This document shows positions 49,570 through 64,000 of a DNA stretch of 64,000 nucleotides, piece by piece. The position numbers and the translations under genes were made by a program. The stretch covers positions 1-64,000 of the forward strand of contig WFOS01000064.1 in NCBI GenBank assembly GCA_015487975.1. Direction: 5' to 3'. The stretch's first letter is position 1, and each line of letters begins with the position of its first letter. Source of the DNA: Ardenticatena sp. GTDB lineage: Bacteria > Chloroflexota > Anaerolineae > Ardenticatenales > Ardenticatenaceae. The notes under the pieces are model-generated. The model worked only from the letters and a program-made list of their open reading frames with translations, had not been told where the DNA came from and did not search any database.

Positions 49570-50133
49570 TCAGATTGGATTTTCCCTGTCCAGATACCAC
49601 CGTAAAGGGTTTTCCACGATATAGCGGCGGATGCGATTCAGGGATTGTTCGTTCCGGATGATATGTTCGTAATAATTTCGTTGCCACAGGCGTTTGTGGA
49701 ATGGGGGCCAACCATCGTTTTTTACGTGGCGAATATATTCATTTGTGGTCATCGTTTTGAACCATTGAACGATTTTCGGTAGGGGCGCACCTATGTATGC
49801 GCCCCTGTGTACGCCCCGTTTGCCAGCGTGGGCGTCCCGCGTGTCATTGGGGTGGGTATCTGCCGGGTGGATGATGATGATGCCGTGAATGTGGTTGGGC
49901 ATGACCACGAATGCATCGGTTTGGACGGTGGGGAATTTGCGATTCAATTCGTCCCACCACCGTTGCACCATCCGTCCGGCGTCGTTCACCCGCATTTCCC
50001 CACCCACCACCGCGCCGAACAAACAGGCCCGGTGTTGGGTACAAATGGTGACGAAATACGCCCCGGGTTGGGCGTAATCGTACCCCTTCAGGCGAATGCT
50101 GCGCCGATGGTGTTTTTCAGGGTCGTATGGCAT
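49570..50133 (-). mobile_element. REP-associated tyrosine transposase (RAYT / Y1 HUH)
   Basis: MPYDPEKHHRRSIRLKGYDYAQPGAYFVTICTQHR; HUH motif MPNHIHGIII; catalytic-Tyr region WQRNYYEHIIRNEQSLNRIRRYIVENPLRW. Confidence 0.9.
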
Positions 50134-50135
50134 GG

Positions 50136-50345
50136 TTATACGCTCCTTGTTTTGTTGATACGCTCCCAGGTCAGATGGCAGACGCGGTAGATCTCTTTGC
50201 GTTCCTTCTCGGTCAAACCAAGGGCATCGAAGACGATGTCCCAGCACCTTGCGCGTTGGGTTCCTGCTCGGCGATGGGCACGTCGGATTGGGAGGCGATG
50301 CCGCATTCGGTGAAGATTGACTTGATCCGAGCCACTTCGGTGGTA
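50136..50345 (-). pseudogene. frameshifted C-terminal remnant of restriction-modification-type adenine methylase
   Basis: EVARIKSIFTECGIASQSDVPIAEQEPNA / frameshift / WDIVFDALGLTEKERKEIYRVCHLTWERINKTRSV*; resembles Eco57I-type methylase C-termini from memory. Confidence 0.5.
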
Positions 50346-50485
50346 TGAGTATGGCATGCATTGTATCAAGTTCATATGCGTGGAGCAATAATTCGACAGC
50401 CTCCTACTACAATCGCATTTATAAGGGCATGGTCTCATCGAGGGGAAGATGGTATTGGCACTATCGGCGCCGATGGTGAGCGCTG

Positions 50486-59049: not shown

Positions 59050-60825
59050 CTATTCCTTCATCCGCCGGCCGCCTTCTTCTGTCGAGAAAATCCAGGCGGC
59101 AATCTCACCAATGTCGATGTGGTCATCGAACGCCCATGTCGCCGGGTCGAACATAGGGCGATCATAGCGCGAACTGGAATCGAAGTCGGGAGATGGGACC
59201 GCCGCCGCTTCATCCAGCAAGCGCTGCATACGCGCCACCCAACGCGCCATGTTCGCGACACGTAAATCCACCCACTCGCTTTCCGCCCACCGCTCGATCG
59301 TCTCGGGTGTCACCTGCCAGCGATACCGCTCCCAACGATGCTCGGGGCGGCGGCGGTTGGCTGCCAGCAAGGTGCGCCCGTCGGGCATGAGAATGGGAAT
59401 ACCAATCGAAAGAAGCGACTGGCGCAAACGTGCATCTTCGTGCACCAACGCACTCACCTCGTCGGAAAGCTCCTGCGGGTCGCTTGCAGCAACAGCCGAG
59501 ACCGTACCCCGCACCCGTTTGAGCATGTAGGCCTCGTAGAGCAATTTCGAGAGTTTCGGTGGCCCCAAAATCTCGAATGCGACGCTTTCCACACCATGCT
59601 TCGCTTCCAGGTGTCGCGCCAACGCAATCGCACGTTGCCGCAACACTCCTGCACGATACGAGGGCCCCAACACCGCGCCATCCAAAGCGTTGATGACATC
59701 ACGCCCCGTGTTGATGCCTTCCAATTCGCGTACTACCGTCACCGCAATATCTTCTGGCGTCACCGCTTCCATCTGCCCCAAGGCGGTCAGCGCTGTGTAT
59801 TCCGCGAGCGAGAAGTAGCCGTTTTCGCCTGTGTCGATGAACACAGATTCAAGCACGCCCTCCACTTCCCGCCCAACGGGAAGCGTTTCGAGCGCAAACT
59901 CCCGCCCCTCTTCGAGCCGAATCCCCTCGTTGGGGGGGCAATCGTACAACGGAAATGGGCGCCCGCGCTTCCGAATGGGACCATATCCAATCTGTTTCCA
60001 CGTAATCGCCGCGGTCGGCTTTACTTCTTTCACCACAGGGCCGCCTGGCGTGCGTGCCATGAGGAAGAGCAACAATGTGTGCGCTCCGGCCATCGCCGTC
60101 TTGCTCAGCAGAACACGCGATGGTTTCTCTTCACCATGCGTGTAGGGGATGTTCAACCCCATGCCCCCCGTACCACTCGTGCCGACTTTGATATACGCAC
60201 GTGTCCCAGCGCGATGCATCGCTTCGTGCAAAATTTGCACATGGCGCACCAGTTGCGGCACGTAAATGCTTGCCAGCAACCGTTCCACTGCATTCACATA
60301 TTCCCCATTCTGCTCGGCGGGCTTTTCTTTGCCCATCGTCCATAGCTGCGTCGCACGGTCGTAAATGTCCAACACTTCGGCCGCACTGGTGTAAATGTCC
60401 TGGTACGCCAGCGCCGTCGCGGTGTTGATACAATCGACGATCGCATCGGGGATGATGCCCGGTGCGTACTCACTCGTCCCCATGACGAGTTGCGCCAAAA
60501 ACGATTCCTGCAAAATCGTTTCGTTCATCTCGCCCAAGACATCTTCGAACACCCAATGACGATACGTGGGCGACGTCAACACTTCGCGGCGGGGCAGATC
60601 TTTCATGGCAGCACGCACAAACACATTGCCCCATGCAGGAATCAGTTCGACATCGCTTTCGGGGAATTCGTCACGTAGACGCTGGACAGCTTTGCGGGCT
60701 TCATCTTCGAGCAAAGAGCTGACAATGAGGCGCTTCGGACGACGTGGAATCAATTCGCGGCATACAGCCATCCCAACCAGACCGTAGCCCCCCAACACGA
60801 GAATTGTACGATCGCGAATCTCCAT
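59050..60825 (-). CDS. NAD-dependent epimerase/SDR-like protein
   Basis: ILVLGGYGLVGMAVCRELIPRRPKRLIVSS; KVGTSGTGGMGLNIPYTHGEEKPSRVLLSK. Confidence 0.72.
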   Translation of the reverse strand: MEIRDRTILVLGGYGLVGMAVCRELIPRRPKRLIVSSLLEDEARKAVQRLRDEFPESDVELIPAWGNVFVRAAMKDLPRREVLTSPTYRHWVFEDVLGEMNETILQESFLAQLVMGTSEYAPGIIPDAIVDCINTATALAYQDIYTSAAEVLDIYDRATQLWTMGKEKPAEQNGEYVNAVERLLASIYVPQLVRHVQILHEAMHRAGTRAYIKVGTSGTGGMGLNIPYTHGEEKPSRVLLSKTAMAGAHTLLLFLMARTPGGPVVKEVKPTAAITWKQIGYGPIRKRGRPFPLYDCPPNEGIRLEEGREFALETLPVGREVEGVLESVFIDTGENGYFSLAEYTALTALGQMEAVTPEDIAVTVVRELEGINTGRDVINALDGAVLGPSYRAGVLRQRAIALARHLEAKHGVESVAFEILGPPKLSKLLYEAYMLKRVRGTVSAVAASDPQELSDEVSALVHEDARLRQSLLSIGIPILMPDGRTLLAANRRRPEHRWERYRWQVTPETIERWAESEWVDLRVANMARWVARMQRLLDEAAAVPSPDFDSSSRYDRPMFDPATWAFDDHIDIGEIAAWIFSTEEGGRRMKE

Positions 60826-60912: not shown

Positions 60913-63900
60913 TTAGAGGCGAAAAGTGGCATCGCCATAAAACAGATAACTTCCCCACGTGATATCCGACCAGCGGCGCTGTGCGAACACCATACGCCGC
61001 GCAGTATGCAACGCCTGCCCAAGTGTTTCGCCCTGCAACAGGTGCTCGTAGAAGGCGCGTGCCATGGTTTCGGCGTCGGTATCGCTCACGCGCCACGCTG
61101 TGGCAATCACGTTGCGGCTTCCCGTCGCGATGAATGCTGCTGCCAACCCGGCCGCTGTACGATGCGCCTGCCGCCACGTCAATGTGTCTGCTTGCCCGCT
61201 TTCGCACGCATTCAAAAAGACCACCGAGGGACGTGTCGGCAGCTGCACAATGTTTTGCGCGGTAATGCGCTCTTGCCCCGCCTGGTCCAGATAGAGAGCG
61301 CTCAATTCAGGGCGTTCAGGGTTGAAGAGAGCATGCCCTGCAAAATGCAAGACGTGGTAGCTCCCAATTTCTCCCAGCAGGTCCAGTGCACTTGTTCCTT
61401 CCCACAAACGCACATCGAGCCGCGGGTTCGTGGAAAGCAGCTCGTACAGATGCACACCTTCCGCCTGTGCCGCGGGTAAATCGCCCGTGGGGTTGGCCAC
61501 AATCAGGACACGTACCTTTCCTTCTGCAGGTGGCGGCAAAATCGTTCCTCCCAGTTTTTCGGTGATCAGACGCCGTGTGACAATCGAATGCAACAACAGT
61601 GGCGTGTCACCACGGGGGAAGAGTTCCCACGGAATTTGGGCGCTGAATGGGTCAAGCCGCAATGTGAGCACGGTTTCAGGCGGCAGGGTATCCAGCGCAG
61701 CACGCAACTCAGACGGCAACAGCTGGTCGCGAATTGTGCGCAGGCGTTTCAGCGTCGTTTCCTGAATATCCCCAGGGCTATGCGGCAAGAAACGCACGGC
61801 ATTCTCGATGGTTTGCAAAAACATTTCGATCTGTGAGGGGTCGAACGGCAATGTGTAGCGCGGCTCGCTTGCCAACGGTTCGGGCCCCGTGTAGGTCAAT
61901 TCCAACGCATTCCCATCGGGGTGCAAGAGAATGCTCAGGTATGCTTGCTTCCATGCCGGTCGTGCGGGTGATACCACCTGTGGCATGCCATCGTGACCAT
62001 AGAGGCGTGGCAACCAGCGTTTACGCATGGCATCTTTGGCGTCTTGCGGCGACAGCGTTTCGCGCGTTTCGACGATGATGGGCACCGGCGTATCCCCCCA
62101 TCCGTAGGTCAACGCCTGCCGCAAGGTGTCGTACTTTTCGGCATCGTACTCGACAATGTAGAGCGTTTTGAGTGACGCTTTTGCGCCAAACATTGCCAGC
62201 GTATCGAGCACGCCACGCACGAATTCGCGTGCAGCAATGCCCACAGGAAGCCCACCGCCCCCAGCGCCGTGGACGATGGTGGCAATCTCTTCCATCCCCA
62301 GCATATTGGCCGTCTGCGCGACCACACGCCCCACGGCCTGCACAATTTGCAGGCGTTGCTGTTCGGACACGGCAAACTCTTCCACCGTCCCTAACCCAAC
62401 CACCAAAACAAGATCGGCAGGCAAGCGCCCTAGGGTGGGCACGGGGAAAATGGTCGCACGCGCCCCCGTGAGGCTTCCCTGCTGCACCCACGCGGAAATA
62501 ATGCCACCCAGCTTGTCATCCACATAGCCCGTCGCGCCGCCCACAGCGGCCCCCTGCACATGGTTGACCACCAGGGCTGTTGTTGGAGCATCGGTAATCG
62601 AACCATGTGCCACCACCAGCGTGAGCGGTTCTACGCGCGTTCGAGAGGTGGTCGAGGTCGGCACCTCGGGGGGGCGTGTTTCTGTGTCGGTTGATGAGGG
62701 CGGCTCGGCAGGCTCACCAGGCGACGGAGTGTCGGTTGGCGTAAACGTGAGGCCACGTGTTGGGCGCCAGACAGGCGGCTGAACGCCAAGGTCGAAAGCA
62801 CGGCGCACCAGGGCAAAATGGTGCAGGAATTCGTCCCACAACGTCTCTCGGCTGAAATCCAGCCCGCCATAGAGATCCAGCAAAGCAGGGTCATCTAGGC
62901 CACGTTCGGGAAAGTAGATCGACAATCCGCTCACGGCGAGCGGTTCGGGGGCATTCCCCCCTCGGCGGAAGAGCGCTTCGTTGGCGAGCACCAGATTCCC
63001 CTGCGAATGGAGCATGTTGCGCACCTGCACCAGTGCCGAACGTGCAGCTGGCGGAAGGTGCGGCTGTTGCGCCAGCGCCGCGGCCAATGTGCCCATATCC
63101 ACATAGTCGGGGCGATTGCGGAAGCGGTGCGCCTGCCGCAACGCATCGAGCACTGCACGAAAGACCACGGCTTCATGGAAACGGGGCAACAACGCTTCGG
63201 CAAGCGCATTCCACGCCTCGACGAGTGCAGGCAATCCCGTTGTCAGAATGGCCGACTGCGTAATTTCATGCTGAAAACGGCTGTACACGCCCAGGTCGTA
63301 CGCCTGGACATACTCGCGCACAAGCGTGCGGGCCACACCCTCGGGGGATGCACCAGGCAACGCCTGCACCAGACGGTCATACGGCCAGCCATAGGCGGGT
63401 TCAAGTGCCTGCGACGCCATCACAATACGCGCTTGCTGCCGCACCTGATAGTGCACTTCGGCCATCGCCATCAGGCATGCATCGAACCCCAACACGTCGA
63501 ACACGGGGATTCCTGCCTCGTCCAGAGCTTGTTGCAATGCCCATTGCAATTCGCGGTTGTCCAGAAAATCCAGCGAGGAATCGTCATAGAGCAAACCGCG
63601 CTGCGTGGACGTTGTGGCGGCACTGCCCAGTTCGTCCAGCGTTGTGGCAAAAAGTGCCCGCCGAAAAGTGGGCACGTTGAAAACCGCACGGACAGCCGGC
63701 TCTTCACGGGCAACGTCTTCCAGCCGCGACCGAAAACGGGCATACACGTCGGTATCGTCCCATCCATTGCCATGATTCCACAACACCAGGGCATAGTGCC
63801 GCGCGGGGTACGTTTGCACTGCCCAGACGACAAAATCGCGCAGGGTCGCAGGGTCACCCGTGTTTGTTTCGGCGAGTGTTTGCACATGGTCGGCTGCCAA

Positions 63901-64000
63901 ATCGGGCGCTGGCGACAGGTGATATCGGTGCGTGCCCTGCTCGCGTGTGTCGAACTGCACCACCACATGCACACGCTGACGAGCATCAGGCGCCAGGCGG
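60913..64000 (-). CDS. clostripain (C11) peptidase - M17-N-like domain - CHAT protease fusion, truncated at window edge
   Basis: C11: YALVLWNHGNGWDD and VLGFDACLMAMAEVHYQ; middle GGATGYVDDKLGGII...VPTLGRLPADLVLVVGLG; CHAT: YHVLHFAGHALFNPE and VVFLNACESGQADT; frame open to the window end. Confidence 0.85.
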   Translation of the reverse strand, partial: RLAPDARQRVHVVVQFDTREQGTHRYHLSPAPDLAADHVQTLAETNTGDPATLRDFVVWAVQTYPARHYALVLWNHGNGWDDTDVYARFRSRLEDVAREEPAVRAVFNVPTFRRALFATTLDELGSAATTSTQRGLLYDDSSLDFLDNRELQWALQQALDEAGIPVFDVLGFDACLMAMAEVHYQVRQQARIVMASQALEPAYGWPYDRLVQALPGASPEGVARTLVREYVQAYDLGVYSRFQHEITQSAILTTGLPALVEAWNALAEALLPRFHEAVVFRAVLDALRQAHRFRNRPDYVDMGTLAAALAQQPHLPPAARSALVQVRNMLHSQGNLVLANEALFRRGGNAPEPLAVSGLSIYFPERGLDDPALLDLYGGLDFSRETLWDEFLHHFALVRRAFDLGVQPPVWRPTRGLTFTPTDTPSPGEPAEPPSSTDTETRPPEVPTSTTSRTRVEPLTLVVAHGSITDAPTTALVVNHVQGAAVGGATGYVDDKLGGIISAWVQQGSLTGARATIFPVPTLGRLPADLVLVVGLGTVEEFAVSEQQRLQIVQAVGRVVAQTANMLGMEEIATIVHGAGGGGLPVGIAAREFVRGVLDTLAMFGAKASLKTLYIVEYDAEKYDTLRQALTYGWGDTPVPIIVETRETLSPQDAKDAMRKRWLPRLYGHDGMPQVVSPARPAWKQAYLSILLHPDGNALELTYTGPEPLASEPRYTLPFDPSQIEMFLQTIENAVRFLPHSPGDIQETTLKRLRTIRDQLLPSELRAALDTLPPETVLTLRLDPFSAQIPWELFPRGDTPLLLHSIVTRRLITEKLGGTILPPPAEGKVRVLIVANPTGDLPAAQAEGVHLYELLSTNPRLDVRLWEGTSALDLLGEIGSYHVLHFAGHALFNPERPELSALYLDQAGQERITAQNIVQLPTRPSVVFLNACESGQADTLTWRQAHRTAAGLAAAFIATGSRNVIATAWRVSDTDAETMARAFYEHLLQGETLGQALHTARRMVFAQRRWSDITWGSYLFYGDATFRL

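Follow-up and report, generated by a model that had tools for sequence, protein, structure and literature searches.

Our question at this locus was why a single polypeptide of a bacterium of the Chloroflexota should carry two different caspase-like proteases with a further domain between them, and whether the two proteases work together. Cascades in which one caspase-like enzyme activates another were thought of as mainly animal, and a few bacterial cases are now known. The reading that we favor, with a probability of about 0.5, is that the fusion works in the cytosol as a switch made of two proteases on one chain. Beyond this one protein, the analysis shows two different clan CD proteases, peptidase C11 (clostripain) and CHAT, that are repeatedly paired in bacteria, sometimes on one chain together with a possible sensor.

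The fusion gene and its domains

At the edge of the window, by which we mean the whole stretch of 64,000 nucleotides that was analysed, a minus-strand open reading frame (60913-64000) is still open and runs past the end, leaving about 40 N-terminal residues outside. The original prediction had placed the N-terminus and the upstream gene beyond the window, and the flanking contig supplied both, the latter being a gene for an M29 aminopeptidase. The full gene occupies 60913-64119 on the minus strand and encodes 1068 aa, starting MSQADWTLMLYMAGDNG; the N-terminal start of the product is also recorded as MSQADWTLMLYMAG. A long open reading frame on the opposite strand (63007-63999, plus strand) was taken to be a shadow of the fusion gene and was set aside.

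The claim that two complete caspase-like proteases sit on one chain was borne out by Pfam, which finds C11 (PF03415, E 1.6e-41, best stretch 171-434, 143.5 bits against a curated cut-off of 25.8) and CHAT (PF12770, E 5e-37, residues 792-1063, 128.4 bits against a curated cut-off of 24), both with intact dyads. By Pfam and profile the C11 domain takes up residues 1-440, of which about 41-440 lie in the window (62800-64000; this and all following features of the fusion are on the minus strand). It is followed by a Pro/Ser/Thr-rich linker recognised from the sequence (residues 441-497, 62629-62799), where the full-length model has a pLDDT of about 33 over residues 460-490. Then come a macro-fold domain akin to the N-terminal domain of leucyl aminopeptidase (LAP), placed at residues ~498-708 (61996-62628) by Pfam, identity, model and Foldseek, a connector of low model confidence (residues 709-790, 61750-61995), and the CHAT protease domain (residues 791-1068, 60916-61749; Pfam and profile) with its catalytic His929 and Cys972. 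The full-length model reached a pTM of 0.46 and was confident within domains only, thus we make no statement on how the domains are arranged. For folding, the domains were aligned separately, since a combined alignment of fusions with C11, CHAT and LAP fragments misplaced the fragments.

The same three-domain layout recurs in two relatives, a congener (82% identity) and a member of the wider family (50% identity), so the gene is neither a chance open reading frame nor an assembly join. The fusion of C11, M17_N and CHAT is thus present in three genomes, all of one family, and no further fusion with M17_N was found among 400 genomes of the phylum when two candidates per genome were scored. With a reading frame that sets in right where the C11 fold has its first strand and carries no signal peptide, the protein should be cytosolic, in contrast to clostripain.

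Active sites of the two proteases

All the motifs quoted in the original prediction are present: WNHGNGW (His116) and GFDAC (Asp213 and Cys215) in the C11 half, HFAGHA (His925/His929) and LNACES (Cys972) in the CHAT half. In the C11 half the catalytic His116 (63772-63774) is invariant in 36/36 homologues, as are Asp213 of the S1 pocket and the catalytic Cys215 (63475-63483). On the CHAT side both His residues are invariant (the dyad His in 24/24 rows) and the Cys is kept in 23/24, the exception being a gap in a row from a contig end. Degenerate active sites are thereby excluded, with dyads kept in 36/36 C11 and 23/23 readable CHAT rows.

Two further features of the C11 half have predictive value. 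The S1 residue Asp213 predicts Arg or Lys at P1. In addition, Arg130 (63730-63732) lies 14 residues past the catalytic His and is R in 32/36 homologues and K in 1/36. In PmC11 the catalytic His is His133 and the processing site is Lys147, where cleavage activates the enzyme; Asp177 and Cys179 are, by homology, the counterparts of Asp213 and Cys215 (PMC4850288). The spacing of Arg130 and His116 equals that of Lys147 and His133, and the solved zymogen 6mzo, which the C11 profile matches at 4e-34, likewise has R at +14. Judged from this alignment, Arg130 is suitably placed for a putative self-processing of C11, which would cut after Lys/Arg in the loop that follows the His.

The CHAT profile matches the SAVED-CHAT structure 8tl0 at 9e-13. 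In the CHAT part there are also an NCBIfam match to Csx29 (0.0033), confined to this part, and, from PADLOC, weak matches to BovA only. Neither a SAVED domain nor a TPR region is among the Pfam matches of the fusion.

The middle domain

The middle region had been described as resembling the N-terminal domain of leucyl aminopeptidase, and this holds at the level of sequence: Pfam reports Peptidase_M17_N (E 5.4e-7, residues 522-602, above the curated cut-off), it is about 40% identical to the N-domains of LAPs from the class, and the sequence profile matches LAPs (7y1s at 4e-17, PepA at 1e-9) as well as TTHA0132 (2.5e-8). It is also a discrete domain, since a model of residues 490-800 gave a compact unit at ~498-708 with a pLDDT of about 90. 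Searched with Foldseek, this model found macro domains first (macroH2A, 1.1e-9, TMt 0.74), with TTHA0132 (TMt 0.83), designed hydrolases on the TTHA0132 scaffold and the N-domains of LAP and PepA among the further matches. The domain is thus LAP-N-like by sequence and macro-like by fold, and we find macro fold to be the more telling label. As to the earlier suggestion of ligand sensing, the modeled fold is of a kind able to bind ligands, and the domain may be a sensor. The Gly-rich loop HGAGGGGLPV aligns with GTGVGGLPV of TTHA0132, and the macro-domain motif GDIT, whose Asp we take to be the adenine contact, reads GSIT in the fusion. In view of the kept loop the domain may be regarded as a candidate ADP-ribose binder, with the Ser in place of this Asp a point against it.

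Two accounts of the aminopeptidase likeness were rejected. The M17 catalytic domain (PF00883) is absent from the Pfam matches of the fusion, which contain the N-domain alone, and without it a leucyl aminopeptidase activity is not expected. Nor has the genome lost its own LAP and reused the N-domain, as a complete M17 enzyme is encoded on another contig (C72).

A different possibility, which we consider somewhat doubtful, is that the middle domain serves as an oligomerisation or spacer module in place of the N-terminal region of a partner CHAT, with regulation passing through protein partners. Where C11 and CHAT are encoded by two neighboring genes, the N-terminal region of the CHAT protein is indeed different, with weak DUF7363-like matches where the fusion has its macro domain. 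However, the residues around both Gly-rich loops and the VVN motif are invariant in the three fusions and mostly retained in LAPs, and a pure spacer would not need them.

Coupling of C11 and CHAT in the class

We ran a profile of the fusion's cytosolic C11 subfamily against 199 genomes from the class. It found 30 places at E <=1e-116 and two near 1e-74; other loci scored 1e-46 and weaker, and these are presumably C11 enzymes of the secreted kind. Three places are cut by contig ends and were excluded, leaving 29 informative members. C11 and CHAT are fused or close in 23 of these 29: four are fusions (G000, G001, G004 and G510:C128), and in 19 the CHAT gene is a same-strand neighbor or lies within ~1 kb. 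The other six (G006, G013, G048:C50, G470, G512 and G567) have no CHAT neighbor, thus C11 can act alone. Genomes of the fusion's own family contain 2 to 10 CHAT genes (six genomes), so that chance alone would give such a neighbor about 1% of the time or less. The members should not be counted as independent, however, because many go back to a single locus.

As a control we looked at 80 C11 loci from many phyla, and only L047, L049 and L052 had a CHAT gene (E <=1e-3). The C11 of the subfamily in Nonomuraea (H1, L200) has no CHAT gene beside it, and the C11 genes on a Burkholderia glumae plasmid are distant relatives (27%). Taken together, the comparative evidence for C11 and CHAT acting together is strong.

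Reading these loci also gave observations on the architecture of the single proteins. Many stand-alone members of the C11 subfamily (L037-L040, L044, L161-L163, L169, L170, L172, L175 and L179) have at their N-terminus a short amphipathic helix with abundant Trp, Leu and Arg, usually followed by a Pro-rich linker; it possibly makes membrane contact and is absent from the fusion. One C11 (L036:7011-9728, plus strand) has a 455-residue N-terminal region with no Pfam match and no CHAT gene near it. In a Limisphaerales genome, C11 is fused behind a calcineurin-like phosphoesterase (L051:4237-9574, plus strand), and the next gene has a divergent CHAT match below the cut-off. In another protein, of 1269 aa (L045:2203-6012, plus strand), a CHAT domain with no C11 link shares the chain with a complete ClpB/ClpC-like double AAA+ unfoldase.

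Genomic settings

An M29 aminopeptidase gene is directly upstream of the fusion in all three genomes, 26-83 bp away, ending 32 bp before the fusion in the window's genome. Downstream, in the window's genome and in a sister genome but not in the third, the next gene is a co-directional SDR/epimerase-like one (59050-60825, minus strand, 591 aa), a weak family assignment at E 7e-5 to 0.07. No defence gene stands beside the fusion in the three genomes, no nuclease or STAND gene was recognised among the neighbors, and no Pepco gene was found in the fusion's own genome. A nuclease was rejected as a part of the fusion's system, there being no MBL gene beside it. Further along the window, a minus-strand frame at 49570-50388 carries a HIHGIIII motif, seen by eye, which we take to be typical of REP-associated transposases; it lies upstream of rpsP-like and rimM-like genes.

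Other C11-CHAT lineages have quite different surroundings. The largest has kept a stable chromosomal place beside mutS across several families, which points to vertical inheritance; mutS was checked with Pfam in two loci and recognised by its N-terminal sequence elsewhere. It lies downstream of the C11-CHAT pair in L039, L040, L042, L166, L167, L169, L170, L175, L176 and L179, and in L173 it is downstream of C11 alone. Elsewhere, L160 adjoins a TIR-nSTAND1-WD40 gene, and in L165 the CHAT protein bears an Ig-like domain as well as EAD7. At four loci a small Pepco gene adjoins the C11 gene; its name presumably reflects earlier sightings of it with peptidases. In L043 (Chloroflexota) and L052 (Lysobacterales) an MBL-fold gene lies near C11-CHAT and matches LmuA at ~1e-60, with further matches to Avs1a and RTasMBL. 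Such MBL nucleases are proenzymes, and trypsin-like or caspase-like proteases activate them (PMC12799240). In the Lysobacterales genome, a metagenome-assembled one, a single stretch (L052:1-8718) holds a patatin-like gene, an HU-like DNA-binding fusion, the MBL nuclease, C11 and CHAT, and looks like a mobile conflict cassette. Its spread in the class of that genome is 2/229 genomes, and the copy was therefore probably acquired. The fusion's own neighbors, M29 and the SDR-like gene, are not defence genes; it is other C11-CHAT lineages that supply the links to defence.

These settings bear on two further explanations. The main rival is intracellular protein turnover or peptide salvage, where C11 and CHAT would cut misfolded or imported proteins, the M29 enzyme would finish the peptides and the LAP-like domain would be a borrowed scaffold. 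The constant M29 neighbor, a middle domain whose nearest matches are the N-domains of LAPs from the class, and the stable chromosomal settings of the main C11-CHAT lineage all favor it. We nevertheless think it unlikely, as among the loci read M29 was recognised beside the fused lineage only, regulation is suggested both by the Arg in the C11 activation loop and by the partner CHATs, and other C11-CHAT lineages come with MBL nuclease, TIR-STAND or Pepco genes. If the fusion were a peptide-turnover enzyme after all, it would represent a new route by which an aminopeptidase domain is reused.

It also seems improbable that the fusion is a system dedicated to abortive infection against phages, with the proteases set free once the macro-like domain has bound a nucleotide signal such as ADP-ribose or a TIR product. 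PMC11229360 describes type III CRISPR systems whose CHAT proteases act in response to cyclic nucleotides. The idea is also in line with the macro fold found by structure search and a Gly-rich loop like that of TTHA0132, and with the TIR-nSTAND1-WD40 and MBL pro-nuclease genes that adjoin related C11-CHAT loci. Yet the fusion has no defence gene for a neighbor in any of its three genomes, and LAPs have the same fold with no known nucleotide sensing. The Ser found where macro domains have their adenine-contact Asp also argues against such a signal.

How often the pairing arose

We built a CHAT tree from 18 C11-linked domains and 21 without a C11 link. The C11-linked CHATs require three label changes, at least two of them forced, and a single clade for them was rejected (delta lnL 99, p-AU 7.6e-47). 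They fall into three sets: the mutS-linked main lineage, the fusion with L160, and L043, L052 and L165. The tree has long branches, with which at least two separate CHAT lineages as partners of C11 is the safe conclusion and three the likely one. The C11 tree and the CHAT tree give the same small groups. The G510 fusion lacks the macro domain and sits inside a two-gene group, therefore fusion occurred twice, once in the family of the window's genome and once in G510. With partners that do not form one clade and with separate fusions, the C11-CHAT pairing was made more than once. That the fusion is merely a neutral accident of adjacent protease genes with no functional coupling is very unlikely: its occurrence in one family, and once in another, would fit, but the CHAT partners are polyphyletic, two fusions are independent, and all catalytic residues are kept between fusions that are 50% identical.

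A proposed single-chain switch

Having become neighbors several separate times, C11 and CHAT suggest a joint protein-cutting switch. For the fusion, the grounds for such a switch lie in the sequence, in its domains, the intact dyads, the predicted Arg/Lys pocket, the putative activation-loop Arg and the repeated C11-CHAT coupling. The surroundings of other C11-CHAT lineages, with MBL nuclease, TIR-nSTAND1-WD40, EAD7 or Pepco, also count for it, as do the SAVED-CHAT cascade (PMC11229360) and the activation of MBL pro-nucleases by proteases (PMC12799240). We infer an order of activation, a signal or ligand, substrates and an outcome. The C11 half would be made as a zymogen with its active site closed by the loop that carries Arg130, and the C-terminal CHAT would be a second clan CD protease of the switch kind found in bacterial immune and stress systems. 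A change of state in some input, most likely the macro-like domain, would render CHAT active. Active CHAT, the most likely activator, would then cut the C11 activation loop, or the released C11 might cut itself. C11, with its Arg/Lys-specific pocket, could next cleave host proteins, and the co-operonic M29 aminopeptidase may trim the resulting peptides. The likely result would be dormancy, remodeling or death, of which dormancy and death are a guess.

Several findings count against the switch. The largest lineage has been passed on vertically next to mutS, which is not how a mobile defence system behaves, and the neighbors of the fusion are M29 and an SDR-like gene. Additionally, six C11 members have no CHAT, and the full model reaches the low pTM given above.

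A stricter version is a one-polypeptide cascade, where the macro-type domain recognises a nucleotide, ADP-ribose-like or other, and passes the signal to CHAT as initiator and then to the fused C11 as executioner. We would put little weight on this version in all its parts. If true, the fusion would belong to a class of C11-CHAT modules which bacteria put together several times, with some members feeding MBL nucleases. In either form C11-CHAT offers a compact, testable initiator-executioner model, and the MBL-linked lineages tie it to the recently described pro-nuclease systems.

Comparison with known systems

No description of clostripain together with a CHAT domain was found in the open-licence literature, and the fusion appears to be a combination of known parts without an earlier description that we could find. 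The evidence for novelty is weak, because the search was limited to open-licence papers.

Each of the parts can be compared with a known system. With PmC11 and clostripain the fusion shares the His/Cys dyad, the S1 Asp two residues before the Cys and a basic residue 14 past the His. Those are stand-alone enzymes, and clostripain is secreted, whereas the fusion should be cytosolic and has a further protease as well as a macro-like domain on its chain. The middle domain has the fold and the Gly-rich loops of the LAP N-domain and of macro domains (TTHA0132, macroH2A); unlike LAP, the fusion has no M17 catalytic domain. The nuclease-protease pairs and canu (PMC12799240) resemble L043 and L052, where an LmuA/Avs1a-type MBL nuclease is found close to C11-CHAT. 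In contrast, the protease described there is trypsin-like or MALT1-like, the main text of PMC12799240 makes no mention of C11 or clostripain, and no nuclease gene stands beside the fusion. Csx29 (TPR-CHAT) and separase share with it the protease domain alone, a clan CD fold of CHAT type by profile, but the fusion has no recognised TPR, and no CRISPR effector was recognised among the adjacent genes.

A further parallel is SAVED-CHAT of type III CRISPR. PMC11229360, citing Steens and coworkers (2024), describes a SAVED-CHAT protease that is activated by cA3 and works by way of a proteolytic cascade. A second caspase-like protease reportedly takes part in this cascade too. Like the fusion, SAVED-CHAT (8tl0) joins a CHAT protease to a possible ligand-binding domain; the fusion lacks SAVED and has a C11 as its other protease, carried on the one chain. 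By analogy, SAVED-CHAT may serve as a precedent for a CHAT protease that works within a cascade.
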